In this document: positions 41,809-59,707 of the stretch, in pieces
How the letters are laid out: each line of letters begins with the position of its first letter
How positions within the stretch are numbered: the first letter of the stretch is position 1
Source: Frankia casuarinae
GTDB lineage: Bacteria; Actinomycetota; Actinomycetes; Frankiales; Frankiaceae
Direction: 5' to 3'
Length of the DNA: 64,000 bases
NCBI RefSeq assembly: GCF_000013345.1
Contig: NC_007777.1
Span: forward strand, 2,108,001 to 2,172,000
Notes under the pieces: generated by a model
Told to the model about the DNA's origin: nothing
The model's database searches: none
What the model saw: only the letters and a program-made list of their open reading frames with translations
Position numbers and translations under genes: made by a program

Positions 41809-42841
41809 GGCTGATCCGCAGCAAAGGACGCCCTGATGGCGGTCGCTCGGCGCGGGTGAGGGCGCGGATCGAGCGGCCCAGGTATTTGGCGTAGTGGTTG
41901 CGCTGGAACCGGTACCGCGCCCAGATCGCCGCGATCGGCTCGTCGAGCAGGTTGCCCAGCGGTTCGAGTAGGTCGGGGGCGCCGTAGACCGGCCAGGCAC
42001 TGGCCTGCCCCGACGGCCCGACAACGATCATGTGGCCTTCGGTGTCCGGGGTCCAGGCCGTCAGGCGCAGTGCCGGCCGCCAGTCGTGCACCGTCCGCAG
42101 CTCGGCCAGCCGGTCGAACATCAGCGTGGCTTCGTCCAGGCTGATGAACTCGTGGTCGGCGAGGTCGAGCGCGTTGCCCTTCTTCAACGGCAGGATCAAT
42201 TTGAGCTTTCCGGCGTCCAGCAGGTCGGCGATCTGGTAGGTGAACGGCAACGCGGCCAGCGTCGAGCGGTAGACCACCGCCGACAGCGACAACGGCAGCC
42301 CGGCGTCCTGGAACGCCCGTATCCCGGCCATCACCGCGTCGTAGTCGCCGCGGACCCGGTTCGTCGTCGCCCGCGGCCCTTCCAGCCCGACGTTCACGAA
42401 CGCGATCTTGCCGGACAGGCGCGCCGCGTGCTGAAGACCGCGGGTCGCGTTGGTCGGCACGCCGATGACCGTCCCAGCGAACAGGTCGACGATGTCCACG
42501 AAGTCCCGGCGCAGCAACGGCTCACCGCCGGACAGGAACACCCGCGGCACCCCGGCCAGATTGTCCCGCATCCGCTCCAACGCATCCAGCGTGGGGTCCG
42601 GCTCCTGCAACGTCTCCGAGCAGAACGAACAGTCAAAATTGCACCGCTTCGTCACCTGAAGGATCACCGACAGAGGGCCGGCCGCCGTCGAGGCAACCGA
42701 GTCCAGGTCCGAGGACGCCGCGAGGTTGAAGTGGTGCCCGTCGGTGAAGACCACAGGTTCATCAGCGCGGGAACGCCCCTCGTCGCAGGCGGACCGCGCC
42801 GCGGGATCGACGGCAGGTACGGATGGGGAATACGCGATCAT
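41801..42841 (-). CDS. radical SAM protein, SPASM-like tail without Cys
   Basis: A 346-residue radical SAM enzyme. The cluster motif is TKRCNFDCSFCSETLQ (C-x3-C-x2-C). VFLSGGEPLLRRDFVDIVDL (the GGEP motif), GVPTNATRG and FVNVGLEGPRATTNRVRGDY follow. The C-terminal region has the order seen in SPASM proteins (VGPSGQASAWPVYG ... LGNLLDEPIAAIW) but lacks the cysteines that bind extra clusters. The ATG at 42841 has GAGAAGGG just upstream; an alternative ATG lies at 42982. It probably modifies a small molecule, since no precursor peptide is nearby on this strand. Confidence 0.88.
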   Translation of the reverse strand: MIAYSPSVPAVDPAARSACDEGRSRADEPVVFTDGHHFNLAASSDLDSVASTAAGPLSVILQVTKRCNFDCSFCSETLQEPDPTLDALERMRDNLAGVPRVFLSGGEPLLRRDFVDIVDLFAGTVIGVPTNATRGLQHAARLSGKIAFVNVGLEGPRATTNRVRGDYDAVMAGIRAFQDAGLPLSLSAVVYRSTLAALPFTYQIADLLDAGKLKLILPLKKGNALDLADHEFISLDEATLMFDRLAELRTVHDWRPALRLTAWTPDTEGHMIVVGPSGQASAWPVYGAPDLLEPLGNLLDEPIAAIWARYRFQRNHYAKYLGRSIRALTRAERPPSGRPLLRISHA

Positions 42842-43157: not shown

Positions 43158-43472
43158 TCAGCTGGGTTCGGCGCCGTGAGCTCGGGCGATGTCGTCGATG
43201 CGCCGAGCGAGATCGAAGTCGGCGTCGGTGATCCGGTGACCGGCATCGTGCGTGGTGATGCCGAAGCGGATGCTGTCCCAGCGTAGGTCGATGTCGGCGT
43301 GGTGACCGATCAGCCGCTCGATGTCCGCGACGTGCACGATTAGCGCGACCGCGCCGTGGTAGCGGATGCCGAAGGTTCTCGTGATCTCGTCGTCGACCCG
43401 TGACCAGCCGGGTAGCTCACGCAGTCGTCTCTCGATCTCGTCGTCGGACAGGGGCACGGGCGCAGCCGTCAT
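43158..43472 (-). CDS. pterin-4a-carbinolamine dehydratase (DCoH), module A
   Basis: A 104-residue protein of the PCD/DCoH family. IERLIGHHADIDLRWDSIRF contains the catalytic HH-x-D core and ITTHDAGHRITDADFDLARR the second conserved block. It dehydrates 4a-hydroxytetrahydropterin and, in some organisms, also acts as a transcription co-activator. No pterin-dependent hydroxylase is in the window. The ATG at 43472 overlaps the TGA of the flavoprotein gene. Very similar to the module B copy at 55952. Confidence 0.92.
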   Translation of the reverse strand: MTAAPVPLSDDEIERRLRELPGWSRVDDEITRTFGIRYHGAVALIVHVADIERLIGHHADIDLRWDSIRFGITTHDAGHRITDADFDLARRIDDIARAHGAEPS

Positions 43473-44023
43473 CACGGGTCCTCCTGCGCGGAGATTTCGC
43501 TGGCGGGCCGGGCGGCGGGCAGCGAGTCCAGAACGGGACGCCAGGCGAAGGTGGTGGTGCCGTCGGGGGGACCGATCGCGTTGGTCGGCAGGACGGTGAA
43601 CCCGTAGGCGGCCAGGTCGCGTAGGGCTCGGGCGAAGGCCGGGTGGGCGGCGAGGGTGGGTTTGACGTAGGGGGCGACGACGACGGGCAGACCGAGTCCG
43701 ATCGCCTCGTTGACGACGCCCAGCGCTGAATTGTCGTTGATCCCGACGGCGCACTTGTTGATCGTGTTGAAGGTCGCGGGGACGACCGCCACGGCGTCCG
43801 CGGGCGGTAGGCGAGGCTCGTCTGGCTGCCGGGGTCGCGAGCGGATCGGGTGGCCGGTTAGCTCCTCCAGAAGGCGCACGTCCAGCCAGGTCGCGGCGGC
43901 CGGCGTCGGAATGAGGCAGACGGCCCACCCCTCGCCGCGGACGTGGCGGATCAGCTCGTTGATCTGCGCGGCGGGCGGGGCCGCGCAGACGACCAGATGC
44001 AGCACCGGTCGCCCAGCCGTCAC
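43472..44023 (-). CDS. HFCD-type flavoprotein
   Basis: A 183-residue flavoprotein of the family that includes phosphopantothenoylcysteine decarboxylase and the lanthipeptide decarboxylase EpiD. LHLVVCAAPPAAQINELIRH starts the fold, VVPATFNTINKCAVGINDNS is the flavin-binding P-x-T-x-N-T region, and LGLPVVVAPYVKPTLAAHPA follows. The start is GTG at 44023, overlapping the XRE stop (GTGA). It lies outside the lanthipeptide operon on the opposite strand. The precursor there does not end in Cys, so an EpiD-like job on that peptide is unlikely. Confidence 0.82.
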   Translation of the reverse strand: MTAGRPVLHLVVCAAPPAAQINELIRHVRGEGWAVCLIPTPAAATWLDVRLLEELTGHPIRSRPRQPDEPRLPPADAVAVVPATFNTINKCAVGINDNSALGVVNEAIGLGLPVVVAPYVKPTLAAHPAFARALRDLAAYGFTVLPTNAIGPPDGTTTFAWRPVLDSLPAARPASEISAQEDP

Positions 44024-45603
44024 GCCGCGACTCCGGCCTGCTCGGCGACGTCCCGCAGGACAGAGACGATGGAACCGCGGGCGCGGCTCAGCAGCGTCGC
44101 CAGCACCGCCCGAGCGGTCGGGTCGACCCGCAGCAGCTGTGGAGCTCGCCGGGCGACGTCGAGGATGTGCACGGCCGCGACGGCGTCCTCGCCCAGGCGG
44201 GCGTGCCCGTCGGCAAGATCTAGGTGCAATCGCGCACGCCTGCCCACCAGCGGGGGAGGCAGCAGACGCGTGTCGATCTGTTCGCCGACGGCGACCGCCT
44301 CCGTCGGATCGTCGAGCGTCAGGGCCGCGGTGAGGGTGTGGATCGCCACGTTCGTCGGCCCGAACGCCGACCACAACCGGTTGTCGTCCCGGCCCAGCGT
44401 GCCCGCCTGCTCGGCCGCGGCGGTGAGCCGGCGGCGGGCTTGCGCCCGCTCACCCTGACGGACCGAGGTCATCGCCGCGAGCAGGAGAAGGGCGCCCCGC
44501 GCGGAAACGATGTCGGGGTGGTCCTCGTCGCCTCGCCGCCGGTTCAGGGCGTCGAGTGCGCTGAGGGCGACCCGTTCGGCGTCGGCCAGCCGCCCTGTGT
44601 CGTGGAAGACGCAGGCGATCTGCCTGCGTGCGGTCGCCAGAAGCACTGGCGTGTCGGCGGCGAGCGCCGCGTGTTGACCACGGTCCGCGGCCAGCCACGC
44701 TAGATCGTGGTCGCCGGTCCTGGTCGCGAGCTTGGCGGCAGCGATGTACGCGACAGCCTGAGACCGCCGGACCGCGCGGTGGTCCACGCCCGCCGGCGAA
44801 TCAGCGACCAGCGTGTCGATACCCCGCACCACCGCGGGAAGGAGCCGCGCCGCCCCAGCATAGTCGGCCCGCTGATACCGGTTGTGGCACTCCCGCCCCC
44901 GCGCCTCAAGGTCAGCAAAGGCACCCGCCGAGGTCACGCCAGGGTCAGCGGACCACTCCGCTGGAACCGTGACGGCCTCCCGCAGATCAGCAAGAAGATC
45001 GTCCCCGGCCGGTGCCCTACTGGTGTTTACCGACACGGCAGGCGCGGCCGGTTGTCGGGGTGTCACCGCGGCAACCCCCGAGATCGACACGGCGAGCAGG
45101 AACTGCTGCCGGTTCAATGCGGTCATCAGCGGCGCCTCGACGTCCACCGCCTTGGTGCGCGCAAGGGAACCGACAGCGCTCGCGGGCACGCCCTCCACGC
45201 GGATCGTGCTGATGAGGAGCAGGTCTGCTGGGGGCATCTGTTCGCGGTCATCGAGGTCGATCAGGTTGTGGATACTGGTGCCATAGACCTCGGCGAGCAG
45301 CGCGAGGAACTGCGGTGTGGGCCGGCGGCGGTTGTTCGGTTGCGGCCACAGCTCCCGTTCGCATAGCCCCGGCCCGGTCAACGGAGCGGCGCCGCCCGGG
45401 TCGAGGCCAACCCGGGCGGCATGAGCGTTGATGTGCCCAGCGGCCTGCGCCTGGGTCCAGCCGTGCGCGACCCGGTGGGCGGCGCGGGGACGGTAGCTAT
45501 AACGGCGGGCGAACTCGGTCGCGATCTCGTCGTGGGACATGCCGACCGCGCGCATCCGCGCCCGCAGCTCTTCCTGCTCGACGCGCTGGCTGGTCTTGCC
45601 CAT
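44020..45603 (-). CDS. XRE-family regulator with helical C-terminus, module A
   Basis: A 527-residue regulator. The N-terminal 115 residues form a cro/C1-type DNA-binding domain (HGWTQAQAAGHINAHAARVG, TPQFLALLAEVYGTSIHNLI). A short segment NRQQFLLAVSISGVAAVTP lies near residue 165, as in related actinobacterial regulators. The rest is a TPR-like helical array (ECHNRYQRADYAGAARLLPA, TARRQIACVFHDTGRLADAE, LHLDLADGHARLGEDAVAAV). It is the first gene of an operon with the HFCD flavoprotein and DCoH protein. Two related regulators lie at 56268 and 58148. Effector unknown. Confidence 0.88.
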   Translation of the reverse strand: MGKTSQRVEQEELRARMRAVGMSHDEIATEFARRYSYRPRAAHRVAHGWTQAQAAGHINAHAARVGLDPGGAAPLTGPGLCERELWPQPNNRRRPTPQFLALLAEVYGTSIHNLIDLDDREQMPPADLLLISTIRVEGVPASAVGSLARTKAVDVEAPLMTALNRQQFLLAVSISGVAAVTPRQPAAPAVSVNTSRAPAGDDLLADLREAVTVPAEWSADPGVTSAGAFADLEARGRECHNRYQRADYAGAARLLPAVVRGIDTLVADSPAGVDHRAVRRSQAVAYIAAAKLATRTGDHDLAWLAADRGQHAALAADTPVLLATARRQIACVFHDTGRLADAERVALSALDALNRRRGDEDHPDIVSARGALLLLAAMTSVRQGERAQARRRLTAAAEQAGTLGRDDNRLWSAFGPTNVAIHTLTAALTLDDPTEAVAVGEQIDTRLLPPPLVGRRARLHLDLADGHARLGEDAVAAVHILDVARRAPQLLRVDPTARAVLATLLSRARGSIVSVLRDVAEQAGVAA

Positions 45604-46799: not shown

Positions 46800-48032
46800 A
46801 TGACCATTCAGCATGAGGAGAGTTCCACCGCGGCTGCTGTGTTGCGCGCGGCCATGGTTGACGAGCTGCGGGAACTCGGCGCGGTCCGTGACCCGAGGGT
46901 GGCGCGTGCGTTGGCCGTGGTGCCGCGGCATTTGTTCGCGCCGGGCGCAGATCTGGCAGCGGCGTACGCGGCTACAGGGACGGTCGTCCCGGTGCGCGAC
47001 GCGGTGGGTCGGATGGTCAGTACGGTGTCGGCGCCGCACATCCAGGCGATGATGCTGGAGCAGGCGCGGGTGGCGCCGGGGATGCGGGTCCTTGAGGTCG
47101 GTTCGGCGGGCTACAACGCGGCGCTGCTCGCGGAGCTCGTCGGCGAGACAGGCGAGGTCACTACCGTCGACATTCTGCCCGGGGTTGCCGAGCGCGCCCG
47201 GCGTTGTCTGGACGCGGCGGGCTATGGCCGGGTGCGGGTGGTGCTGGCCGACGCCGAGGGTGGCGTGCCCGACCACGCGCCCTATGACCTGGTGCTGGTG
47301 ACGACGGCGGTCCGTGACATTCCCTCCGCGTGGACGGACCAGCTCGCGCCCGGCGGCCGGCTGGTTGTGCCGCTGCGGCTGCGGGGCCAGACACGCTCGG
47401 TCGTGTTCGAGGCCGACGGCGGGCGGCTGGTTGGCCACGACGCCCAGGTCTGTAGTTTTGTCCCGCTCGCGGGTGCTGGGGCTTTCCCGGAGCAGGTGCT
47501 GGCGTTGGACGGGGACGATGTCGTGGTCCGGCTGGACGACGCGGCCCCGGTGGACGTGGACGAGGTCCGCCAAGCGCTGACCTGGCCGCGGGTGAAGACC
47601 TGGTCGGGTGTCCACAGCGGCGAAGAACCGTTCGATGACCTGCTGCTGTGGCTCGCGGTCGGCCTGGAGAACTCTGGTCTGCTGCTGGCCCGGCAGGCTG
47701 CGGTCACGCGGGGGACAGTCGCCCACGCGTGGAGCCTCGGCATGCCGGCGGTCGTAGGAAAAGGCAGTCTCGCCTACTTCTCGCTCAGTGCGAAGGTTCC
47801 CGGCCGTGTGTCCCGCGAGTTTGGCGTTCAGGCCCAGGGTCCCGCCGCCGAGCTGCTGACCTCCCAGTTCATCGAACGGATCCGCGCGTGGAAGGCCGAT
47901 CGGCCGGCCCGTATCGAGGCATTCCCCGCGGGTACTCCGGACGCCGCGCTGCCCGCCGGCGGCGTGTTTCTCGATCGCCCTCATCGGCGTGTCGTCGTCT
48001 CCTGGCCGTCCGGCCCGGAGGTTCCCGTCTGA
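46800..48032 (+). CDS. FxLD-system methyltransferase
   Basis: A 410-residue protein of the L-isoaspartate O-methyltransferase (PCMT) superfamily as found in FxLD lanthipeptide clusters. VVPRHLFAP near residue 40 and VSTVSAPHIQAMMLEQARVA precede the SAM motif MRVLEVGSAGYNAALLAELV. GEVTTVDILPGVAERARRCL and YDLVLVTTAVRDIP follow, and an additional C-terminal half is typical of this subgroup. The ATG at 46800 has GTGAGGA 6 bp upstream. Related enzymes in class I clusters methylate an aspartate of the modified peptide, which can then rearrange to isoaspartate. It is the first gene of the cluster. Confidence 0.9.
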   Translation: MTIQHEESSTAAAVLRAAMVDELRELGAVRDPRVARALAVVPRHLFAPGADLAAAYAATGTVVPVRDAVGRMVSTVSAPHIQAMMLEQARVAPGMRVLEVGSAGYNAALLAELVGETGEVTTVDILPGVAERARRCLDAAGYGRVRVVLADAEGGVPDHAPYDLVLVTTAVRDIPSAWTDQLAPGGRLVVPLRLRGQTRSVVFEADGGRLVGHDAQVCSFVPLAGAGAFPEQVLALDGDDVVVRLDDAAPVDVDEVRQALTWPRVKTWSGVHSGEEPFDDLLLWLAVGLENSGLLLARQAAVTRGTVAHAWSLGMPAVVGKGSLAYFSLSAKVPGRVSREFGVQAQGPAAELLTSQFIERIRAWKADRPARIEAFPAGTPDAALPAGGVFLDRPHRRVVVSWPSGPEVPV

Positions 48033-48057
48033 GTGCGGGAACCGTCGTGGCGCCTCA

Positions 48058-48079
48058 CGGGAGGGCACACGCCCTCCCG
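48058..48079. terminator. hairpin after methyltransferase gene
   Basis: CGGGAGGGC-ACAC-GCCCTCCCG, a perfect 9-bp stem with a 4-base loop, lies 25 bp after the methyltransferase stop and 80 bp before the precursor gene. It may partly end transcription or protect the 3' end. A less GC-rich stretch (TCTCTATTCCCTATTCC) just after it could belong to a separate precursor promoter. Confidence 0.55.
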
Positions 48080-48159
48080 GCTGGCGTGGCCATCCGGCCG
48101 TAGGCGCCAGCACGGCCACGGCGATGTCTCTATTCCCTATTCCTTCTCAAGGAGGTTCC

Positions 48160-48345
48160 GTGACCCCCCAGAACGCCCCCGCGCCGGTCGTCGATCCCGA
48201 TTCCGCGCTTGACCTCGACGAGTTCGACCTCGACGTGACGGTGGTCGAGTCCGGCCAGCTCGTCGAGGAGCTGATTCGCATGACCGACGACGGCTGCGGC
48301 ACGACCTGCCAGAGCGCCTGCCCGAACACCTGCCCTGGCGACTGA
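48160..48345 (+). CDS. FxLD-family lanthipeptide precursor peptide
   Basis: A 61-residue precursor. The GTG at 48160 follows an excellent GGAGG site. The leader is acidic and carries FDLD at residues 22-25, the motif that names the FxLD family. The core region (from about residue 41) reads MTDDGCGTTCQSACPNTCPG then D. Its four Cys (46, 50, 54, 58) are spaced exactly every fourth residue, and Thr42, Thr48, Thr49, Ser52 and Thr57 are available for dehydration. The peptide would be dehydrated by LanB, cyclised by LanC, and probably methylated on an Asp. No Cys at the C-terminus, so no aminovinylcysteine is expected. Confidence 0.92.
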   Translation: MTPQNAPAPVVDPDSALDLDEFDLDVTVVESGQLVEELIRMTDDGCGTTCQSACPNTCPGD

Positions 48346-48365
48346 ACCCGGCCGGAACATGACCT

Positions 48366-48407
48366 GAGCCCGGTCCGGCCGACAAGCTGCCTGGCCGGAC
48401 CGGGCTC
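48366..48407. terminator. 15-bp stem-loop between precursor and lanB
   Basis: GAGCCCGGTCCGGCC (48366-48380), a 12-base loop, then GGCCGGACCGGGCTC (48393-48407): a perfect 15-bp stem. It sits 20 bp after the precursor stop and 11 bp before lanB. In lantibiotic operons a stem here typically works as a leaky terminator or processing site, giving more precursor mRNA than enzyme mRNA. That role is inferred from position. Confidence 0.8.
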
Positions 48408-48418
48408 GCCGGACAGGA

Positions 48419-51400
48419 ATGACGACCATGCCGACCATTCGCGACCCAGGCGGGTCCGCTGCACCACGCTCGGCGATCCCGCGAGCCACGCCGTCAGAGG
48501 TCCGCGACTCCGACTTGGCGAGCGGCCCGCAGGTCGCCGGGCTCGGCGCTCGGGCCAGCGACGCGCTGTACAGGGTGGCTGGCCCGGGTGTCGTTCGGGT
48601 GGCCGAACCGATGCCAGGTCTGGCCGCGCTGCCTTGGCCTGACCTTGGGGACGGGGGCGAGGAGACCGAGCGGTGGTGCCAGTGGCTGCGCGAGGCTTGG
48701 GCGTGTGCGCCGTTCGCCGCAGCCGTGCAGGCCGCGAGCCCAGTGCTCGCGCGCCGGATCGCCCAGGTGTGCGCGGGCGGCGATCTACCCGCACGGCAGG
48801 CACGTAGCGCCGTGCTGTCGCTCATGCGGTACCGGTTACGGCTGGTGAGCCGAGCTACACCGTTCGGCCTGTTCGCCGGGGTCGGCCCGGCCCGGCCCGG
48901 TACCGCGCTCACCGTGTATGAAGACCCGACGCACCATCGCATGCTGGCACGGGTGGACACGGCGTGGTTGTTCGATGTGCTTGACCAGCTCGAAGGCGTT
49001 CCGGGTGTTCTCGACGTCCTGCCCGTCCGCGCGAACGATCTCGCCTTCGTTCGTGATGGTCGGCTGGTACTGCCGTTCGAGGGCCCGCGAGCCGGGAGCG
49101 ACGCCGAGGTGTCCACAGCCGAGACCTCGGTCCGATACACACAGGCTGTCGCGGCGGTGATGAAGGCTGCGGCCGGACCCGTTCTCGTCGGGACGTTGGC
49201 CGCCCAGCTCGGCACCGAGTTCCCGGCCGCGCCTGCGCGGGTGCTTCGAGGCATGCTCTCGACACTGGTCGAGCGGCGGTTCCTGCTGTCCGGGCTTCGG
49301 CCACCGTCCACCGAACTCGACCCGCTCGGCGCGGTCCTCGCGACGCTGCGGGCGATCGGTGCCGACCCGGTACCCGAGGCGGCCGATCTCGTGGACGCCC
49401 TGCGCCGCCGCTCTCGCGGGCTCGCCGACATCACGGAACCGTGGACGTCACAGCCGGCGACCCCAGACACCGCAGCCCCGACCTCAAGCCCCTCCGGGCG
49501 CCGGCCTCCCATCGCCCTCGACATGCGGGCCGGCGTCGGGCTGGAACTGCCTCGGCTGCTCCTCCGAGAGGTAGAAGCAGCCGTCGACCTGCTGGTCCGG
49601 CTCGCGCCGGCACCCCGGGGCAACGCCGCCTGGCGCGACTATCATGATCGATTTCTTGAGCGCTTTGGTGCCGGCGCGTTCGTGCCGGTCAACTCCCTGA
49701 TCAATTGTGAAACCGGGCTCGGCCTGCCCGCCGGATACCGGGGAACCACACTCGGCCCGGCAACGGCCGGCCCGCTCTCGGACCGCGACGCGCTGCTGCT
49801 TGCCCTGGCGCAGACCGCGGCGGCCCGCCGAGACCGCGAAGTCACCCTTGATGCCGAGTCGCTCGCGCTGCTCCGCACGAGCGACGCGGTGGGCTGGACC
49901 TGCCAGCCCCACACGGAGCTGCGGTTTCGGCTGCACGCAGCAGACCGCCGCGCGGTGGAACGCGGCGCGTTCGACCTCGCTGTCGAGGGAGTCTCACGGG
50001 CCGCCGGGACAACTCTGGGCCGCTTCCTCGACCTCGCCAACGAGGCCGACCGCGAGGAGATGACCTCGGCACTTCGCGCGCTGCCGACCCGCCAGCCGGG
50101 GGCACTTCTCGTCCAGTTGTCGGGTGGCACGCTGTCGGCCACCGCTGCGAACGTCTCCCGCGCGCCGCGCATCCTGGACCATCTCATCGCGCTCGGCGAG
50201 TACCAGCCGCCGGACCGCGGGATGATCCCCGTGACGGACCTCGCCGTCACCGCAGACGGTTCGGGTCTGTGGCTGGTCTCGTTGTCCCTGGGCCGACCGG
50301 TGGAGCCGGTCGCGTTCCACGCCGTCGAACTCACCCGTCACGGACACCCCCTGCTCCGGTTCCTCAGCGAGATCGGCACTTCCCGCGCCGCCCCCTGCGC
50401 GCCGTTCTCCTGGGGCGCGGCCCGACGGCTGCCGTTCCTGCCACGCCTGCGCCACGGGCGGACGATCCTCGCCCCGGCCCGCTGGCTCCTGGCCCCGGCT
50501 GACCTGCCCGGACCGGACGCCACCTTCGCCCGGTGGAGCGACGACCTCGCGGCCTGGCGGGACCAATGGGGCGTTCCCGACCAGGTCTTCCTCGGCAGCG
50601 ACGACCGCCGCCTCCTGCTCGATCTGACCGAGCCCGCCCACCTCCACCTGCTGCGCGCAGACTTGGGCCGCGCCACGCGGGCAACCCTGCGGGAAGCACC
50701 GCCGCCTGACGCAGCCGGATGGATCGGCGGGCGGACCCACGAGATCGTCCTCCCGCTCGCCGCACCTCCGACCCCGACGGCGGAGGTACCGCGCCCACGG
50801 CGCCCGGCGCGGATCGCGACCTCGGCGGACGCCCATCTACCCGGAGACGGCGCCTGGCTGTACGCCAAGCTCTACGCCCAGCCCGACCGTCAGGTCACCA
50901 TCCTCACCGAACGCCTCGCCAGCCTGTGGGAACACTGGGACACCCCGCCGCTGTGGTGGTTCCAGCGATACCAGGACCCAGCCCCACATCTGCGGCTACG
51001 AATCCGCCTCATCGACCCTGACGGGTTCGGCGACGCGGCCCGGAGAGTGGGCCGCTGGGCGACCGCACTGCGCCAAGCCGGCCTACTGGACCAGCTCCAG
51101 TTCGACACCTACCTTCCAGAGACCGGCCGCTTCGGCGGCGCCTCGACGCTCGCCGCCACGGAGACGCTGTTCGCCGCGGACTCCACCGCCGCACTCGCCC
51201 AGCTCGCAGCCTCCGCCCGCGGTGCCACCCACCCCCATGCGCTGGTCGCCGTGAGCCTGCTCGACCTCGCCGCGGGCTGCCTACCCGGAGACGACGCCGC
51301 CCGCTGGCTCGTCGAGCAGCTACCACGCACGCAGGGACCGCCGATCGACCGCGCGCAGCACGACGCCGCCGTTCACCTCGCTGACCCGCGCGAAAGCCAG

Positions 51401-51652
51401 GCGACGATGCACACCCTGCCGGGCGGGAAGGAGATCCTCACCGCCTGGGCGCGCCGCCGGGCGAGGCTCGCCGACTATCAGACGGCGCTCACCTCGGCCG
51501 GCGACGGACTCACGACCCGCGGCCTCTTGCCGACGCTGATGCACCTCCACCAGTTCCGGATGACGGGGCCGTCCGTCCAGGCAGAGCGCGACTGCGCCCG
51601 CCTCACCCGCGCCGTTGCGCTCAGCGTTCTCCGCCGCCGGGAGATGGCATGA
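48419..51652 (+). CDS. lanB: lanthipeptide dehydratase LanB with fused SpaB-C domain
   Basis: A 1077-residue class I lanthipeptide dehydratase. The N-terminal glutamylation domain shows the hallmark LVSRATPFGLFAGV near residue 145, and FLERFGAGAFVPVNSLINCE in its middle. The C-terminal elimination (SpaB_C-type) domain starts near residue 800 with GAWLYAKLYAQPDRQVTILT and WWFQRYQDPAPHLRLRIRLI, ending with LMHLHQFRMTGPSVQAERDC. The enzyme uses glutamyl-tRNA to activate Ser/Thr of the precursor and then eliminates glutamate to leave dehydro residues. Its ATG overlaps no other gene; its stop overlaps the lanC start (ATGA). Confidence 0.95.
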   Translation: MTTMPTIRDPGGSAAPRSAIPRATPSEVRDSDLASGPQVAGLGARASDALYRVAGPGVVRVAEPMPGLAALPWPDLGDGGEETERWCQWLREAWACAPFAAAVQAASPVLARRIAQVCAGGDLPARQARSAVLSLMRYRLRLVSRATPFGLFAGVGPARPGTALTVYEDPTHHRMLARVDTAWLFDVLDQLEGVPGVLDVLPVRANDLAFVRDGRLVLPFEGPRAGSDAEVSTAETSVRYTQAVAAVMKAAAGPVLVGTLAAQLGTEFPAAPARVLRGMLSTLVERRFLLSGLRPPSTELDPLGAVLATLRAIGADPVPEAADLVDALRRRSRGLADITEPWTSQPATPDTAAPTSSPSGRRPPIALDMRAGVGLELPRLLLREVEAAVDLLVRLAPAPRGNAAWRDYHDRFLERFGAGAFVPVNSLINCETGLGLPAGYRGTTLGPATAGPLSDRDALLLALAQTAAARRDREVTLDAESLALLRTSDAVGWTCQPHTELRFRLHAADRRAVERGAFDLAVEGVSRAAGTTLGRFLDLANEADREEMTSALRALPTRQPGALLVQLSGGTLSATAANVSRAPRILDHLIALGEYQPPDRGMIPVTDLAVTADGSGLWLVSLSLGRPVEPVAFHAVELTRHGHPLLRFLSEIGTSRAAPCAPFSWGAARRLPFLPRLRHGRTILAPARWLLAPADLPGPDATFARWSDDLAAWRDQWGVPDQVFLGSDDRRLLLDLTEPAHLHLLRADLGRATRATLREAPPPDAAGWIGGRTHEIVLPLAAPPTPTAEVPRPRRPARIATSADAHLPGDGAWLYAKLYAQPDRQVTILTERLASLWEHWDTPPLWWFQRYQDPAPHLRLRIRLIDPDGFGDAARRVGRWATALRQAGLLDQLQFDTYLPETGRFGGASTLAATETLFAADSTAALAQLAASARGATHPHALVAVSLLDLAAGCLPGDDAARWLVEQLPRTQGPPIDRAQHDAAVHLADPRESQATMHTLPGGKEILTAWARRRARLADYQTALTSAGDGLTTRGLLPTLMHLHQFRMTGPSVQAERDCARLTRAVALSVLRRREMA

Positions 51653-52875
51653 ATCCAGGCACCGCGGAAGACACCGGCCGCGACACGCTCTCCAGCCGGG
51701 CACTGGCCGCCTCAGCGGCAATCGCGGACCAGCTCGCCGACCCCGCCGCCGTTCCCCGAGGCCCTGGCCGGCGGCGAGGCCAGTCCCTCGCGGGCGGTGC
51801 AGCCGGCATCGCGCTGCTCCACCTCGAACGAGCCCGCACCGGCCACGGCGACCCCGCCATCGCCAACGCCTGGCTACGGGCGGCAACCCGAGACCCAGCC
51901 AGCGCAGGGCCCAACGCCTCCCTCTACTTCGGCGCCCCCACCCTCGCCTTCGTACTCGACGCCGCAGGCCGCCCAGACCAGCTCACCCAAGCGGTCACCA
52001 CACTCGACACCGCGACCATCGCGGTCACACAGCGACGACTTGCCGCGGCTGACGCCCGCCTCCGCGCGGGCCTCCGCCCGCCGCTCGCCGAATTCGACCT
52101 CATCCGCGGCCTCGCCGGCCTCGGCCGCTACCACCTACGCCGCCAGCACCCGATCATCACCGATGTCCTGACCCACCTCGTCCGTCTCACTCAGCCCCCT
52201 GCCAGCGGAGACGGACTACCCGGGTGGTGGACCGACCTCGACCCCAGCGGCGCATCCTCCCGTGACTACCCACACGGTCATGGAAATGCCGGAATGTCCC
52301 ACGGCATCGCCGCCTGCCTCGCCCTGCTCGCACTAGCCAACAGCCGCGGCACCGAGGTCGACGGCCACCGGGAAGCGATCGAACGGATCTGCGCCTGGCT
52401 CGACGGGCACCAGCAGCCTGGCATCGCTGGCTGGCCGGGCATCGTCACCCCGACACCGGGCCATGACGTCAGGCAGCAGCGGTTGTCCTGGTGCTACGGC
52501 ACCCCAGGGATTGCCCGTGCGTACCAACTCGCTGGACTCGCCACCAGTGACCCGAGGCGCTGCGAGAAGGCCGAAACCGCGTTGCACGCATGTCTCGACG
52601 ACGCGGCTCGCCTCGAACTGACCACCGACATCGGCTTGTGCCACGGCCTGGCAGGGCTGGTCCACACGACATCCCGGGTCGCGGCCGACGCCACCACACC
52701 CGAACTCGCCCAGCTCCTGCCCACCCTCGTCGCCCGGCTGCTCGACCAATACCCCACCGCGCCGCACGACCCGGAGCTTCTCGATGGCTTGGCCGGGGTG
52801 GCGCTTGCCCTGCACACCGCGGCCCTCGGCTCCGCCCCCGTGACCGGGTGGGACGCCGCCTTGCTCCTCGCGTGA
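51649..52875 (+). CDS. lanC: lanthionine synthetase LanC
   Basis: A 408-residue cyclase. The zinc ligands are visible as Cys in LSWCYGTPGIARAYQ and Cys-His in GLCHGLAGLVHTTS. GHGNAGMSHGIAACLALLAL is the conserved GxxHG-type repeat of the alpha-toroid. It joins Cys thiols of the precursor to dehydrated Ser/Thr to form lanthionine rings. The ATG overlaps the lanB stop and the gene ends overlapping the next start (GTGA). Length is usual for the family. Confidence 0.94.
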   Translation: MNPGTAEDTGRDTLSSRALAASAAIADQLADPAAVPRGPGRRRGQSLAGGAAGIALLHLERARTGHGDPAIANAWLRAATRDPASAGPNASLYFGAPTLAFVLDAAGRPDQLTQAVTTLDTATIAVTQRRLAAADARLRAGLRPPLAEFDLIRGLAGLGRYHLRRQHPIITDVLTHLVRLTQPPASGDGLPGWWTDLDPSGASSRDYPHGHGNAGMSHGIAACLALLALANSRGTEVDGHREAIERICAWLDGHQQPGIAGWPGIVTPTPGHDVRQQRLSWCYGTPGIARAYQLAGLATSDPRRCEKAETALHACLDDAARLELTTDIGLCHGLAGLVHTTSRVAADATTPELAQLLPTLVARLLDQYPTAPHDPELLDGLAGVALALHTAALGSAPVTGWDAALLLA

Positions 52876-53735
52876 GAGAACCGATGATCCGCAACGACTC
52901 CGACCCCCGCCCGTGCATCGACGACGCACCTCAAAACGACGAAGACGGGTGTTCGCCGCGCCACCCCTGGCGGCAGGCCACCATGCACTTCGCCGACTAC
53001 GCCCAGGCCGATGCCGCCGGCCGGGACCTCGGCGCCGCGCTGGTGGCCGCCGAAAATGATCATCTGCTGGATGCGTGGTGGTTCATCCGCAAGTCCCCCT
53101 GCTGGCGGCTCCGCTTCCAGCCGACCTCACCGGTAGACGACGCGGCAACCAAAGCGGTCCACGACCATCTCCATGCTCTGCGCGAGCGCGGCCGGATTGC
53201 CGGCTGGAGCGAAACCCTGTACGAACCGGAAACCTTCGCCTTCGGCGGCCCGCCCGCCATGCAGATCGCGCACCGGCTCTTCCACCAGGACAGCCGCCAC
53301 CTGCTCACGACCGCGCCCCGCAGCCGCGCCCGCGCCCGAGCGCTGTCGATCCTGGCCTGCGTGAGCCTGATGCGCTCCGCCGGCCAGGACTGGTACGAAC
53401 AAGGCGACATCTGGGCCCGGGTCGCCGAACACCGCCGCTGCCCACCCGACCTTGTCAGCGACAGCCGTTCCCTGGAGCCCAGCCTGACCCGCCTTCTGAG
53501 CGCACAGACGCCAGACACCAACGCCCTGGGCAAGGACGCGGATCTGGCTCACTGGATCGGTGCCTTCGGCGCCACCGGCCGTGACCTTGGCCGGCTCGCT
53601 CATGACGGCACACTCCAGCGCGGGCTACGCGCGGTCCTCGCGCACCACATCATCTTCCACTGGAACCGCGCAGGGCTATCCCACGACGCACAGGCAGTGC
53701 TCGCCCGCGCCGCAAGCACCGTGGTCCTCGGATGA
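52872..53735 (+). CDS. thiopeptide-type (SpaB-C) biosynthesis protein
   Basis: A 287-residue stand-alone SpaB_C-type elimination domain, as found in thiopeptide and FxLD clusters. HPWRQATMHFADYAQADAAG, LLDAWWFIRKSPCWRLRFQP, WSETLYEPETFAFGGPPAMQ and ARALSILACVSLMRSAGQDW follow the family pattern. The start is taken as GTG 52872 because it overlaps the lanC stop, as at the other junctions; an ATG at 52884 with GAGAGAA upstream is also possible. LanB already has its own such domain, so this second copy may act on another step or partner. Confidence 0.88.
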   Translation: MREPMIRNDSDPRPCIDDAPQNDEDGCSPRHPWRQATMHFADYAQADAAGRDLGAALVAAENDHLLDAWWFIRKSPCWRLRFQPTSPVDDAATKAVHDHLHALRERGRIAGWSETLYEPETFAFGGPPAMQIAHRLFHQDSRHLLTTAPRSRARARALSILACVSLMRSAGQDWYEQGDIWARVAEHRRCPPDLVSDSRSLEPSLTRLLSAQTPDTNALGKDADLAHWIGAFGATGRDLGRLAHDGTLQRGLRAVLAHHIIFHWNRAGLSHDAQAVLARAASTVVLG

Positions 53736-54907
53736 CCGCCAGCCCGACCACGCCGCCGCCCCTTCCCCAGACGGTGGCGAACTGGTTTCCCCTGGTACCC
53801 CGGCCGCGTCCACCGACCATCGACCGGCGACAGCGGCTCACCGAGATCGAACACCTCGCCCACTCCGCACCGGGAAACGCGCGCAGGACGACCAACGCTG
53901 CCGAGGCTCTCAACAAGGCCGCGCTCCTCGCGAGCGACTGCGGACTGCCCGACCTCGCCAAGGATCTCTGCTGGCGCCAGTTCCACGTCTTCGACAACGC
54001 CGGCCCCCAGCCCCCGGCCCTCGCGACAGCCGTACTGCAACCGCTGATCAATCTCGGCCGGCTGGAGCTCCGTGCCGATGACCCCGACCGGGCATACACG
54101 TTCTTCAACCAAATCCACCACGCGGTCCGCACCTCGACCGCCGTCGTTCTCGACGGCGTCACCGTCAACCCTGCGCGGTTGTTCGCCGACGACAACACGC
54201 TCCTCCGGGCACGCCGGTTTACCTGGACCGTCCTGCTCGGCGACGGGACACGGGCGTTGGCGCGCGCGGGCCGCTGGGACGACGCCGTTGCCCACCTCCA
54301 CCGACACCACGGCATCGGACGACGGCTCCTCGACGGCCGCCAGACCCTCATACTCGCGAGCCACCTTGCAGGAGAATCCGAAGCCGCACGCACCGCGCTC
54401 GCCACCAGTGTCACTCCGACACCCTGGGAACGAGCGGTCGCCGCCGTTCTCGGAATCCTCTGCCGACACGGCAGCGAGCCGCAGGCGATCGGAGCGGCGC
54501 TCGATGACCTCCGCGCCAGCAGCCGTGACCCGACCCACCCTGTATTCCAGAACCGGCTTGGCCTAACGCTCCTAGACCTCGCCACCGACGCCACCGACCA
54601 GAAGTGGATTGCGTCCGCGATCCTCGCCGGCCTCCGCGACGGACACGACGGGCGGTGCGCGGCTGATGCCCTCGCCCACCCCCGGCTACAACAGCACCTT
54701 TCCCCCGCCCATCGGGTCGACCTAGTCGAGCGAGTCAAGACCGCTGGAATCCAGCGACCTCCCCCGACCACCTTCCGTGACGCGATGACGACAGCCACGC
54801 TGGCCGCGGAACGCGGACTCCGCGACGCGCTCGCCGGGCCATTGGAAGGCGGCCGGTTGATTACCCGCCGTCCTGACCAGAGTGCAGCTCGCGGAGAAGC
54901 AGGTTGA
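53732..54907 (+). CDS. helical-repeat protein of lanthipeptide operon
   Basis: A 391-residue soluble protein of unknown function, composed largely of alpha-helical hairpins (NAAEALNKAALLASDCGLPD, LINLGRLELRADDPDRAYTF, RALARAGRWDDAVAHLHRHH) in the manner of TPR arrays. A proline-rich N-terminus contains WFPLVPRPRPPT. The ATG overlaps the stop of the SpaB-C gene (ATGA), so it belongs to the operon. It may be a scaffold or regulator. The 3' end overlaps the convergent dehydrogenase gene by 47 bp. Dedicated export and protease genes were not found. Confidence 0.75.
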   Translation: MTASPTTPPPLPQTVANWFPLVPRPRPPTIDRRQRLTEIEHLAHSAPGNARRTTNAAEALNKAALLASDCGLPDLAKDLCWRQFHVFDNAGPQPPALATAVLQPLINLGRLELRADDPDRAYTFFNQIHHAVRTSTAVVLDGVTVNPARLFADDNTLLRARRFTWTVLLGDGTRALARAGRWDDAVAHLHRHHGIGRRLLDGRQTLILASHLAGESEAARTALATSVTPTPWERAVAAVLGILCRHGSEPQAIGAALDDLRASSRDPTHPVFQNRLGLTLLDLATDATDQKWIASAILAGLRDGHDGRCAADALAHPRLQQHLSPAHRVDLVERVKTAGIQRPPPTTFRDAMTTATLAAERGLRDALAGPLEGGRLITRRPDQSAARGEAG

Positions 54908-55951: not shown

Positions 55952-56266
55952 TCAGAGCGGTTCGGCATTGTGGGCCTGGGCGATGGCCTCGATGCGCCGT
56001 GCGAGATCGAAGTCGGCGGTGGTGATCTGATGCCCGGCGTCGTGGGTGGTGATCCCGAAGCGGATGCTATCCCAGCGCAGGTCGATGTCCGCATGGTGGC
56101 CGATCAGCCGCTCGACGTCGGCAACGTGCACGATCAGGGCGACTCCACCGTGGTAACGGACGCGGAACGACTTGGTGATCTCCTGGCCAGCACGGGCCCA
56201 GCCGGATAGCTCGCGCAGCTGCGCCTCGATCTCGTCGTCGGCCAGGGGCACGGGAGCGTCCGCCAC
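55952..56266 (-). CDS. pterin-4a-carbinolamine dehydratase (DCoH), module B
   Basis: A 104-residue PCD/DCoH protein, closely similar to the module A copy. The catalytic block is VERLIGHHADIDLRWDSIRF and the second block ITTHDAGHQITTADFDLARR. The start is GTG at 56266, one base after the TGA of the regulator gene, so the two are co-translated. The repeated pairing with XRE regulators suggests a role linked to them, as either a cofactor enzyme or a protein partner. Confidence 0.9.
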   Translation of the reverse strand: MADAPVPLADDEIEAQLRELSGWARAGQEITKSFRVRYHGGVALIVHVADVERLIGHHADIDLRWDSIRFGITTHDAGHQITTADFDLARRIEAIAQAHNAEPL

Positions 56267-56267
56267 G

Positions 56268-57722
56268 TCAGGTCTCCTTCTCCGGGGCGAAGATCTCATC
56301 GATGTCGCGGCCGACGGCCGCGCCTTTCAAGGGTTGCGCCGCTTGTCGTAGGCCGGCGAGCTCGCGGCGAATCCGCACGGACCCAGTTTCCACCGCCAGG
56401 GCCGCCGCAAGTCGCCCGGCATCGACCGCGCGCCCGACGTCGCCGCTCTGGACGCACGCGGTGGCCTGCCGGGCGAGAAAAACACCGCGGTCTCGCCGGG
56501 CGTTGGCAGGCGTCGTGTCGAGGATCTGCCGCCACAGGCCGGCAGCGGCCGTAACCAGGCCCAAGCGTCCGTAGCAGGTGGCGCGTTGCACCTCCAGGTA
56601 GGCCGACGTGCGACGGCATGCGTTGCCCCACGGCAGGCCGTCGTCGCATCTCTCGACGAGCGGAGCCGCCTGGTCCAGGGCGGAGTCGACGGTGGCGCGG
56701 TCTCCGACGAGTGACGCGCCGTGGGCCTGCTGCTGGAGCGCCAGGACCCGCATCTTCGGGCTGAGTCGACCGGCGTCGGCCAGGACCGCGCCACACAGGT
56801 CGAGCGCGCCGAGCCCGTCAGCAAGATCTGTGCGGACTGATGCGTGGTTGAGCAGCGCGTAGGCGACGAGCTGCGGGTCCCGGGAGCGTTGTGCGACCTC
56901 CAAAGCGACGCCCCGCCAGACGGACGAAGTTTCAAGGTCACCGGCATCCTGATGGAGCCAGCCGATCAGCGAGGCATAGGCCGCGCTGGAGCGCAGGAGG
57001 GCCAGCCGCGTCTCCCCGCGTGCGGTCGCCACCAGGTTGCTGATGAGCGTGTGCTGAACGGTGACGGTACTGATCAGCTCGCGGGGACCGAGCATCACGT
57101 CCGCTCGGTAGTGGCCCTCCAGCTGCTGGCCGAAGTAGTCGACGAGCGCCGGGTCGACGTGCCGCGGGGCGGTTCTCCCGAACGTGAGCGCGGTAGCCGT
57201 CGCGGTGACGAAGTCGCGTCGGTCGATGTGGGCCGGAGAGCCTGGCTGGACGAGCCCCCGGGCGGAAGGAGCAGCCCGGGGCGCAGGCAGAATGCGGCCA
57301 GCGGCAGGCTCGATGCGATCAACGCGGCTGATCAAGAGGGTGTCGGCGGGAGTGAAGTGTTCGCGGTCGTCGAGGTCGATGAGGTTGTGGATGTTGGTGC
57401 CGTAGACCTCGGCGAGCAGCGCGAGGAGCTGGGGGGTGGGCCGGCGGCGGTTGTTGGGGAGCGGCCAGTTCTCCAGCTCGGACAGGCGGGGGCCGTCCAT
57501 CGGGGCGGCGCCACGGGGGTCGAGGCCGACCTGGGCGGCGTGGCTGTTGATGTGTCCGGCGGCTTGTACTTGGGACCAGCCGTGCGCGTGGCGGTGCGCG
57601 GCGCGGGGGCGGTAGCCGTAGCGGCGGGCGAACTCGACGGCGATTTCGTCGTGGGACATGCCGGCCGCGCGCATCCGCGCCCGCAGCTCGTCCTGTTCCG
57701 CCCGCCGGCTGGACCTACTCAC
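56268..57722 (-). CDS. XRE-family regulator with helical C-terminus, module B
   Basis: A 484-residue paralogue of the module A and C regulators. The DNA-binding domain has HGWSQVQAAGHINSHAAQVG and TPQLLALLAEVYGTNIHNLI. It is followed by RRDFVTATATALTFG and the helical sensor (VDPALVDYFGQQLEGHYRAD, ALQQQAHGASLVGDRATVDS, YLEVQRATCYGRLGLVTAAA). The start is GTG at 57722. Its first 120 or so codons are identical in DNA to those of module C apart from the start codon, whereas the C-terminal parts are only moderately similar. Confidence 0.9.
   Translation of the reverse strand: MSRSSRRAEQDELRARMRAAGMSHDEIAVEFARRYGYRPRAAHRHAHGWSQVQAAGHINSHAAQVGLDPRGAAPMDGPRLSELENWPLPNNRRRPTPQLLALLAEVYGTNIHNLIDLDDREHFTPADTLLISRVDRIEPAAGRILPAPRAAPSARGLVQPGSPAHIDRRDFVTATATALTFGRTAPRHVDPALVDYFGQQLEGHYRADVMLGPRELISTVTVQHTLISNLVATARGETRLALLRSSAAYASLIGWLHQDAGDLETSSVWRGVALEVAQRSRDPQLVAYALLNHASVRTDLADGLGALDLCGAVLADAGRLSPKMRVLALQQQAHGASLVGDRATVDSALDQAAPLVERCDDGLPWGNACRRTSAYLEVQRATCYGRLGLVTAAAGLWRQILDTTPANARRDRGVFLARQATACVQSGDVGRAVDAGRLAAALAVETGSVRIRRELAGLRQAAQPLKGAAVGRDIDEIFAPEKET
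57357..57721. repeat. 365-bp identical block, copy 1 (with 59342-59706)
   Basis: Read base by base, 57357-57721 and 59342-59706 appear identical. The block covers the DNA-binding domain codons of regulators B and C and stops abruptly on both sides, at the start codon and just after the LIDLDDREH codons. The flanks are clearly diverged. This is a footprint of recent recombination or gene conversion. Confidence 0.85.
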
Positions 57723-57855: not shown

Positions 57856-58155
57856 TTATCGTGCGCCATGCGCTGACGCGATTTCCTGAATGCGCCTGGC
57901 GAGCTCGATGTCGTGTTCGGCGACGTAGCCGCCGATGTCGCTGGAGCTGATCGACACATGCACGGTCTTGTATCCGAGTGTCGCGTCGGAGTGGTGGCCG
58001 AACTCGTCCTGGATCGCGGCGATGTGCACGATGAACGCGGCGCCCTGGATGTGGGGTATCGAGTAGAGCCGTTCGATCCGCCGGCCGTCGGTCGTCCATC
58101 CGTCCAGGGTCTTGAGGTGTTCGTCGATCATGTCTCGGGTCAGCGCCTCAGCCAT
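57856..58155 (-). CDS. DCoH-family protein, module C (divergent)
   Basis: A 99-residue DCoH-family protein more distant from copies A and B. IQDEFGHHSDATLGYKTVHV keeps the HH-x-D core, but the second block (ISSSDIGGYVAEHDIELARR) is altered. The ATG at 58155 overlaps the end of the module C regulator by 8 bp. The catalytic His pair is retained, so dehydratase activity is possible. Divergence from A and B suggests an older duplication or a different partner. Confidence 0.88.
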   Translation of the reverse strand: MAEALTRDMIDEHLKTLDGWTTDGRRIERLYSIPHIQGAAFIVHIAAIQDEFGHHSDATLGYKTVHVSISSSDIGGYVAEHDIELARRIQEIASAHGAR

Positions 58156-59707
58156 GCTCTCTCCCGGTCTCGTCGGTGGTGAAGGGTGTGAGCACGTCGG
58201 CGAGCTCCTGGCCGAGGGGGTGCGCGCGCCACGGAGCCATCGCCGCCGCGACCGCGGCCAGTTCTCGCCGGGCCCGCGCGGAGCCGGTCTCCACCGCGAG
58301 CGCGCTGGCCTGGCGCGTGAGGTCTACCGCCCGCTCTGGTTCTCCCTGCCGCGCGGCGGCGACCGCGTGGCGCGCTGACCAGACCCCGACGTCCCGGCGG
58401 GCAGAGGCCGGGGCAGCGGGGATGATCTGCTGCCAGAGGCGGTCAGCGTCGTCGGCGAGACCCAGCCGTCCATAGCAGGTTGCACGCTGCACTTCGACGT
58501 AGCCGTCGGTGCGGCGGCAGGCCGTGCCGTATTCCTCGACCTCGACGTGCTCCACGAGCCGGCCGGCCTGATCGAGGAGGAGATCAACCTGGCGACGGTC
58601 ACCGCGCAGCGACGCGCCGTGTGCCTGCTGCTGCAAGGCGAACACCTGGACTTCGGGTGCCAGCTGCCGGGCGTCACCCAGCGCGGCCTGGCACAGGTCG
58701 ATCACGGCCGCCGCGTTTCCCAGGTCGGTGAAGGCCATCGCCCGATCGACCAGCGCGCAGGCGACGGCGTCGCGTTCCCCGCAGCGGTGGGCCAGTTCCA
58801 AGGCCGCGTCGTGGCAGCGCATCGCGGCGACCGCGTCTCCCGCGTCGAGCCACAGCCAGGCCGCGAACGCGGCGAACGAGGAGCCGACCTTCGCCAGGCC
58901 CCGGCGGGTCGACCCGTCCGCGGCATCCAGCAGTTGCGTGATGACCTCGTATTGGGAGGCGACCGTGCCGATCAGGGCGCCGGCGCCGAGCAGCATGTCC
59001 GCGTGGTAGTGGCCCTGGAGCTGGCCGTCGAAGTAGGAGATGAGCGCCGGGTCGACGTGGCGGGCGCGGCCGGCGCCGGCCAGACCCGCCACTACTGCTG
59101 ATCCCGCGAGAAGAGTGAACCCGCGGCGGCCGAGAGCGTCCACCCACTCCATGCTTCCAGCAGGCCCGTCGAGACGCAGCCCCCTGGCCGCACCATGACC
59201 GCGTCCCGACTGGACGCACGGGGCCGTGGGGCTGAAACACGGGGCCGCGGGCAGTGCAAGGTTCACCGGTGATCCCGTCGGCGGCGTTGGCCGAGCGTCC
59301 TGGCGTGTGGTGGTGATGACCAGCATGTCTGCTGGGGGCATGTGTTCGCGGTCGTCGAGGTCGATGAGGTTGTGGATGTTGGTGCCGTAGACCTCGGCGA
59401 GCAGCGCGAGGAGCTGGGGGGTGGGCCGGCGGCGGTTGTTGGGGAGCGGCCAGTTCTCCAGCTCGGACAGGCGGGGGCCGTCCATCGGGGCGGCGCCACG
59501 GGGGTCGAGGCCGACCTGGGCGGCGTGGCTGTTGATGTGTCCGGCGGCTTGTACTTGGGACCAGCCGTGCGCGTGGCGGTGCGCGGCGCGGGGGCGGTAG
59601 CCGTAGCGGCGGGCGAACTCGACGGCGATTTCGTCGTGGGACATGCCGGCCGCGCGCATCCGCGCCCGCAGCTCGTCCTGTTCCGCCCGCCGGCTGGACC
59701 TACTCAT
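58148..59707 (-). CDS. XRE-family regulator with helical C-terminus, module C
   Basis: A 519-residue paralogue of regulators A and B, starting at ATG 59707. After the DNA-binding domain, which is identical to B, it has a linker of about 75 residues rich in Pro and Ala, then LGRRGFTLLAGSAVVAGLAG and the helical sensor (VDPALISYFDGQLQGHYHAD, ALQQQAHGASLRGDRRQVDL, YVEVQRATCYGRLGLADDAD). The hydrophobic RRxF segment could be a buried helix or a membrane contact. It overlaps the DCoH gene that follows. Likely autoregulated, but no operator was identified. Confidence 0.9.
   Translation of the reverse strand: MSRSSRRAEQDELRARMRAAGMSHDEIAVEFARRYGYRPRAAHRHAHGWSQVQAAGHINSHAAQVGLDPRGAAPMDGPRLSELENWPLPNNRRRPTPQLLALLAEVYGTNIHNLIDLDDREHMPPADMLVITTTRQDARPTPPTGSPVNLALPAAPCFSPTAPCVQSGRGHGAARGLRLDGPAGSMEWVDALGRRGFTLLAGSAVVAGLAGAGRARHVDPALISYFDGQLQGHYHADMLLGAGALIGTVASQYEVITQLLDAADGSTRRGLAKVGSSFAAFAAWLWLDAGDAVAAMRCHDAALELAHRCGERDAVACALVDRAMAFTDLGNAAAVIDLCQAALGDARQLAPEVQVFALQQQAHGASLRGDRRQVDLLLDQAGRLVEHVEVEEYGTACRRTDGYVEVQRATCYGRLGLADDADRLWQQIIPAAPASARRDVGVWSARHAVAAARQGEPERAVDLTRQASALAVETGSARARRELAAVAAAMAPWRAHPLGQELADVLTPFTTDETGREHG
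59342..59706. repeat. 365-bp identical block, copy 2 (with 57357-57721)
   Basis: Second copy of the block described at 57357-57721. It encodes the complete DNA-binding domain of regulator C. Because the two regulators would then recognise the same DNA, they probably share or compete for targets. Confidence 0.85.

Follow-up and report, generated by a model that had tools for sequence, protein, structure and literature searches.

The stretch of Frankia casuarinae DNA considered here (the window: 64,000 nucleotides, positions 2108001-2172000 of a single contig of 5,433,628 bases) carries, at 46800-54907 on the plus strand, a complete operon for a class I lanthipeptide of the FxLD type, comprising genes for an O-methyltransferase, a precursor peptide, LanB, LanC, a standalone paralogue of the LanB elimination domain and a sixth protein, orf6. 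Genes, whose coordinates are given in window positions, were called with our own codon-score script trained on the window genes, and 67 were called in the window. All six frames of the operon are open, and five match family models with scores far over the cut-offs, orf6 being the exception. The methyltransferase (46800..48032, plus strand as are all six genes, ATG start, 410 residues) scores 479.8 bits against TIGR04364 (cut-off 320) and 153 bits against PF01135, and the 61-residue precursor LanA (48160..48345, GTG start, AAGGAGG upstream) scores 63.2 bits against TIGR04363 (cut-off 30). A full-length LanB dehydratase of the NisB/MibB type, with an elimination domain of its own, runs from an ATG at 48428 (or 48419) to 51652 (PF04738, 701 bits; PF14028), its closest relatives in the PDB by sequence being MibB (5ehk, 5e-86) and also NisB. 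The separate LanC cyclase (51649..52875; PF05147, 142 bits) has both the WCYG and the LCHG motif, which presumably provide the Zn ligands. The standalone paralogue (52884..53735, 283 residues; SpaB_C / thiopep_ocin) matches PF14028 and TIGR03891 (208 bits), and orf6 occupies 53732..54907 (391 residues). The identity of the system as FxLD class I follows from the match of curated models to both the precursor and the methyltransferase, alongside the full LanB and separate LanC. The initial annotation had described a cluster of this class with intact core enzymes, and this is borne out, although the elimination-domain paralogue and orf6 had not been singled out there.

The precursor (MTPQ...FDLD...MTDDGCGTTCQSACPNTCPGD) has its leader motif FDLD at residues 22-25 (48223..48234) and the sequence TDDGC at residues 42-46 (48283..48297), predicted to form a first methyllanthionine (MeLan) ring around Asp44, itself the predicted target of the methyltransferase. 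Precursors across FxLD clusters, whose alignment had been proposed in the initial annotation as a check, were compared in a set of 66 sequences over the TIGR04363 cut-off (62 from a scan of near relatives and four from a phylum-wide scan; six matches under the cut-off, five from the first scan and one from the second, were excluded). The near-constant element proved to be not the ladder of regularly spaced cysteines, present in nine, but [ST]xDxC, found in 62 of the 66, the remaining four having [ST]DxGC with the Asp one place earlier. TxD[GN]C is present in 49 and TxDGC in 30; the latter is the core of most LanSA-modified lanthipeptides (PMC10787088; also PMC13001092), and the TDDGC of the window precursor is of this lanthimiditide form.

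The methyltransferase is a PIMT homologue with a C-terminal extension of more than 100 residues: the PCMT domain stops near residue 225 of the 410, TIGR04364 is matched over the full profile length, and the proteins related to it in the PDB are PIMTs (2yxe the best, 1.2e-30). The related OlvSA needs a dehydrated and cyclized peptide, on which it yields a methyl ester, an aspartimide and then 70-80% isoaspartate (PMC13001092). By analogy the window enzyme, as a LanSA/PIMT homologue, is expected to turn Asp44 in the Thr42-Cys46 ring into aspartimide/isoaspartate. In the proposed sequence of events LanB would bind the FDLD leader and dehydrate core Thr/Ser, LanC would add Cys to the dehydrated residues to give at least the Thr42-Cys46 ring, and the LanSA methyltransferase would then methylate Asp44 inside that ring, the resulting aspartimide opening mostly to isoaspartate. 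A methylated peptide had been named earlier as the product to look for; methylation of Asp does fit the type of enzyme, but the methyl group may not persist in the product, since for such enzymes Asp is on record as being methylated and then passing to aspartimide/isoaspartate (PMC13001092).

The four cysteines of the core, at residues 46, 50, 54 and 58, form a CX3CX3CX3C ladder (48295..48333); these positions, like the FDLD motif, are as the initial annotation had read them. Of 200,000 core shuffles in which the first Cys and the composition are held, 0.2% reproduce the exact ladder, and among the 66 FxLD precursors its nine occurrences (9/61 once precursors sharing the last 40 residues are collapsed) include a second precursor of the same genome, at 2.39 Mb; a chance origin was rejected on the shuffle rate together with this recurrence. 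The same two observations can be cited for the idea that the ladder gives rise, as had been proposed, to an even stack of small thioether rings with a period of four, the product being an antibacterial lantibiotic. Past the first ring, however, the sequence excludes such a stack. In either direction the residue four from C50, from C54 and (upstream) from C58 is itself Cys, so that T42-C46 is the sole possible ring of four and equal rings beyond it cannot form; and with Gly, Gln and Pro three residues upstream of C50, C54 and C58, rings of three could be closed only in the reverse direction, which is the rarer one (C46-T49, C54-T57). The other FxLD cores show different spacings past the first Cys, namely 3-3 (14 of the 66), 9 (12), 3-4 (11), 3-3-2 (6), 7 (6), 3-6 (4), 3-2 (3) and 3-3-4 (1), so that period four is no shared design rule. 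We give the stacked fold almost no credence. When Ser/Thr is joined to Cys in the usual direction, the sole short ring is T42-C46, and the next shortest, leaving aside spans of one or two residues, run from T48 or T49 to C54 and from S52 to C58; the other cysteines may lie in longer overlapping rings (e.g. T48/T49-C54, S52-C58) or be free.

Class I clusters that combine a full LanB with a standalone elimination-domain protein, often fused to a methyltransferase, have been described, and the standalone protein was suggested to do something besides elimination, its role being raised as an open question (PMC7268733). In NisB the substitutions R786A, R826A and H961A keep glutamylation and lose elimination (PMC4979651). 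By alignment with NisB, R786 and R826 correspond to R858 and R901 of the window LanB, and H961 to H1039 by the H-x4-R-x8-E spacing (NisB H961, R966 and E975 in the numbering of PMC4341554), where a His also aligns in MibB and MadB. When 48 LanB C-terminal domains were aligned with 38 standalone paralogues, the window copy included, R901 and H1039 were found to be kept in all 48 LanB domains, that of the window LanB among them, whereas the window paralogue has A119 in the place of NisB R826 and I257 in the place of H961, with only the R786 equivalent, R77, kept. Ala stands at the R826 place in 89% of the paralogues and Ile at the H961 place in 74%, and what the paralogues share instead is YEPExxAFGG, DWYEQGD, RGLR and NR. 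With two of the three residues of a NisB-type glutamate eliminase gone, the protein encoded at 52884-53735 is, judged by its residues, probably no longer an eliminase. Its model (mean predicted local distance difference test, pLDDT, 88.8) has the elimination-domain fold, with Z scores of 19.0-19.9 to the elimination domains of MibB, MadB and NisB (MibB 19.9, NisB 19.4). This fold, together with the retained R77, is what can be said for the alternative that the paralogue still assists LanB by eliminating glutamate and that orf6 is a mere neighbour. We consider that improbable: the two replaced positions are invariant in the 48 LanB domains compared, Ala at R786, R826 or H961 stops elimination in NisB (PMC4979651), the LanB of the same operon is complete, and in 78 of 80 orf6 loci the paralogue adjoins orf6, the other two loci beginning at a contig end.

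The sixth protein, orf6, has no Pfam or NCBIfam match over cut-off, no PHROGs match and no PDB sequence match better than E 0.069, and it was accordingly rejected as a member of a known family; against the tetratricopeptide repeat (TPR) model TPR_4 of Pfam it reaches 23.3 bits, under the gathering score of 27. Among the papers listed in literature searches on lanthipeptides and tetratricopeptide, subscription papers lying outside them, no title or abstract opening describes such a protein. Twenty copies align with 48% mean column identity and 22 invariant columns. The model (pLDDT 90.5) is nearly all helix, and its shape matches among the 50 listed are mostly TPR chains (Z 10.8-14.9, root-mean-square deviation, rmsd, 3.8-9.2), the best being the TPR proteins Rap and LGN (Z 12-15, rmsd about 5-8); helical repeats often reach Z near 13 by shape alone, and the best Foldseek match has E 3e-3, with nothing under E 0.001. 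The model thus suggests a TPR-like helical fold, at the level of shape and not of function. Such a fold, with RapI (Z 14.9, rmsd 5.4, 245 residues aligned) among the best chains, raises the idea that orf6 is a peptide-sensing regulator of the Rap/NprR kind which controls the cluster and is not a maturation factor. This seems to us unlikely, although less so than an eliminase helper. Pfam and NCBIfam find no DNA-binding domain in orf6, the RapI score is near the level of unrelated helical repeats, and a role as an enzyme partner fits better because in the window, as in many relatives, orf6 starts within the end of the paralogue gene or shortly after its stop, and because paralogue and orf6 form a single frame of 747 residues in another FxLD cluster that this genome carries at about 3.92-3.93 Mb (L032:2054-4297).

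The genomic company of orf6 was followed in two ways. In a profile scan of named genomes, from which the best 80 of 144 encoding stretches were taken and the copies least like the query left out, orf6 has next to it the paralogue in 78 loci, LanC in 77, LanB in 75, the methyltransferase in 74 and a match to the precursor model in 71; in L140, L156 and L192, where both LanB and the methyltransferase are missing, the locus starts at the end of a contig. That orf6 is a random neighbour was rejected on the figure for the paralogue. The commonest gene orders are M-A-B-C-S-6, M-A-B-C-S and A-B-C-(S+M fused)-6, where M is the methyltransferase, A, B and C are the precursor, LanB and LanC, S is the paralogue and 6 is orf6, and paralogue and methyltransferase share one frame in 40 of the 78 named loci showing the paralogue (L193, flagged with both in its orf6 frame, was read as an edge frame overlap and not counted as a fusion). 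Among 62 precursor loci, orf6 is present in 28, one of them L032, where it is fused, and in 27 of those 28 the paralogue is there as well, either on its own or within a long methyltransferase frame; genes beyond a contig cut are counted as absent in these figures (seven loci show no LanC), and methyltransferase frames of more than 600 residues as fusions with the paralogue. The one of the 28 without the paralogue, L062, is also without LanB and LanC. All nine ladder loci have orf6, as against 19 of the 53 others (Fisher p 0.0003, relatedness ignored), an association not taken as proof.

It is on these adjoining genes and natural fusions that the paralogue, orf6 and, by fusion, the methyltransferase are treated as one module, an argument from guilt by association. 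The paralogue and orf6 look like an extra maturation module of undefined chemistry. More specifically, orf6 and the paralogue, with a conserved site of its own (YEPExxAFGG, DWYEQGD, NR) and joined to LanSA by fusions, might grip the cyclized precursor and carry out or direct an undescribed modification beyond isoaspartate, a proposal to which we assign slightly less than an even chance. For the operon as a whole the best explanation, with a probability of roughly 0.8, is that it makes an isoaspartate- or aspartimide-bearing lanthipeptide (a 'lanthimiditide'), with the paralogue and orf6 acting together with the methyltransferase on the cyclized peptide. The paralogue, putatively no longer an eliminase, would with its two partners present the peptide or add a further change to it.

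Several observations weigh against this explanation. The chemistry is carried over from OlvA by homology. Orf6 is not seen in 34 of the 62 precursor loci, some of them contig-cut, and so some FxLD products must do without it. Nor is the methyltransferase strictly tied to orf6, that enzyme being undetected in six of the 80 orf6 loci. Two of the six, L146 and L196, have LanB, LanC, paralogue and orf6 inside a long contig with no detectable methyltransferase, and a further locus, L138, has methyltransferase, paralogue and orf6 with LanB and LanC undetected; contig ends explain none of these three. By these three loci orf6 is tied more tightly to the paralogue than to the methyltransferase. A literature search with the locus tags around the presumed precursor tag, Francci3_1820, gave a 2010 survey alone (PMC3091789), and no product is known. 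The lack of a known product also favors the view that the cluster, silent or in decay, yields no peptide, and a relative's locus, L062, can be cited to the same end, as it keeps methyltransferase, precursor and orf6 and shows no LanB, LanC or paralogue among its called genes. In the window, by contrast, all six frames are intact and the residues conserved in the family are kept, and a silent cluster appears to us a slim prospect. L062 itself is likely a decayed cluster.

Leader removal and export would be left to genes elsewhere. The initial annotation had seen no transporter, leader protease or immunity gene, and this holds among the 28 of the 67 called window genes that the Pfam scan covered, the precursor included: none was recognized, immunity genes not being tested apart, and crude motif tests find no ABC, multi-span or subtilase motif at the window locus. 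The classical lantibiotic arrangement, with LanT, LanP and immunity genes beside the operon, is not found among the scanned genes. Across 61 FxLD loci and the 853 called genes that lie within nine genes of the anchor, the same motif tests find an ABC-ATPase motif in three loci (L076, L077, L104), a protein with at least four predicted membrane spans in six and a subtilase motif in none, and a hidden transporter or protease nearby was rejected on the Pfam and motif tests together. The families recurring in at least five loci within nine genes are the core genes, helix-turn-helix regulators, HATPase, DUF397, DUF5753, DUF6879, S-adenosyl methyltransferase, HAD, Pterin_4a, acetyltransferase, SDR and two left unidentified by Pfam; no transporter or peptidase family was recognized among them (ten representatives were Pfam-scanned, one without a match, and L111_0 and the core families were named by eye or BLAST). 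Because the lack is common across FxLD loci, a missing exporter or protease is no pointer to internal action, which had been offered before as one way to account for it and which is not indicated for this product. In L076 and L077 a 681-residue protein with an ABC-ATPase motif and four predicted spans lies three genes after LanB, a possible exporter in a minority of loci.

Around the operon the window holds three copies of a gene pair, at 43158-45603, 55952-57674 and 57856-59707 (all minus strand), which flank the lanthipeptide genes on both sides. Each pair consists of a long regulator-like protein and a protein like pterin-4a-carbinolamine dehydratase (PF01329); the three regulator-like proteins are alike by eye, one matches a PHROG transcription regulator, and a flavoprotein gene (43472-44005) sits inside the first pair. 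Farther upstream, a row of five genes at 31929-37674 (minus strand), with two AMP-binding enzymes, a TauD/TfdA dioxygenase and a DUF6624 protein, appears to be a separate pathway, and a radical SAM protein (41801-42754, minus strand) lies two genes from a P-loop kinase-like gene (40379-40993).

As a cluster the operon is unexceptional, belonging to a large family of predicted lanthipeptide clusters that has already been catalogued. FxLD precursors were found in 30 of 58 genomes near the source and in seven of 396 phylum-wide (E <= 0.001), the source genome being in both sets; in the phylum-wide scan 18 candidates were scored per genome, so that 7/396 may be low, and six of the 396 have one over the cut-off. 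The source genome has four FxLD precursors over the cut-off, with a full LanB and an FxLD methyltransferase next to every one of them, and it has a fifth such methyltransferase gene. This last gene, at about 5.34 Mb (L120), adjoins an elimination-domain paralogue, with no LanB, LanC or precursor called nearby. The window precursor and its counterpart in genome G412, which we take to be EuI1c, are identical at 27 of 39 aligned residues (69%), and a tag numbered 1820 should by our estimate fall near 2.15 Mb. The 2010 survey counted three CcI3 lantibiotic clusters with a LanA and two LanB/LanC pairs without one, and quoted for the cluster II precursor, Francci3_1820, 69% identity to FraEuI1cDRAFT_6351 (PMC3091789). 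As this identity is reproduced and the tag roughly fits the position, the operon appears to have been in print since 2010 as 'CcI3 II'. Beside the LanB at 2.39 Mb lies a clear FxLD precursor with CX3CX3CX3C (L031, 2393823-2393927), which by its rough position looks like cluster IV, listed without a LanA in the survey (PMC3091789). What the operon adds is thus one predicted product in a big family without a characterized native product, and the part worth study is the conserved orf6/paralogue pair rather than the cluster itself.

Several known systems are close to this one. For cluster II of Frankia sp. CcI3, apparently the window operon itself, LanB, LanC and O-methyltransferase are noted; the CcI3 clusters are described with two O-methyltransferase genes each, and the window operon has one; the available passages give the O-methyltransferase no firm role, suggest protection of Ser/Thr, and do not mention the paralogue or orf6 (PMC3091789). 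The class I families I 1-4 of Walker et al. (2020) are actinobacterial, and their conserved core Asp and O-methyltransferase are common to the window operon, whereas orf6 and the loss of eliminase residues, both features of the window operon, go unmentioned in the section and passages available (PMC7268733). New here are orf6, its tie to the paralogue and the loss of eliminase residues by the latter; the residue losses and the orf6 tie make the question posed there, of what standalone elimination-domain proteins do, testable with a small operon. The thiopeptide [4+2] cyclases PbtD, TbtD and TsrL show the elimination-domain fold reused for other chemistry, and the paralogue shares that fold; its model gives Z 16.6-18.0 with these and related cyclases (PbtD 18.0), no nearer than to the LanB elimination domains, and no azole-forming gene is present among the window genes scanned. 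The lanthimiditide system OlvA/OlvB/OlvC/OlvSA of Streptomyces olivaceus likewise combines class I enzymes with a PIMT-like LanSA (PMC13001092; PMC7268733). The comparison with OlvA extends as far as the first ring, and it is in that ring that the two systems meet: the target of OlvSA is an Asp inside the N-terminal MeLan ring (PMC13001092), as is predicted for Asp44 of the Frankia precursor.

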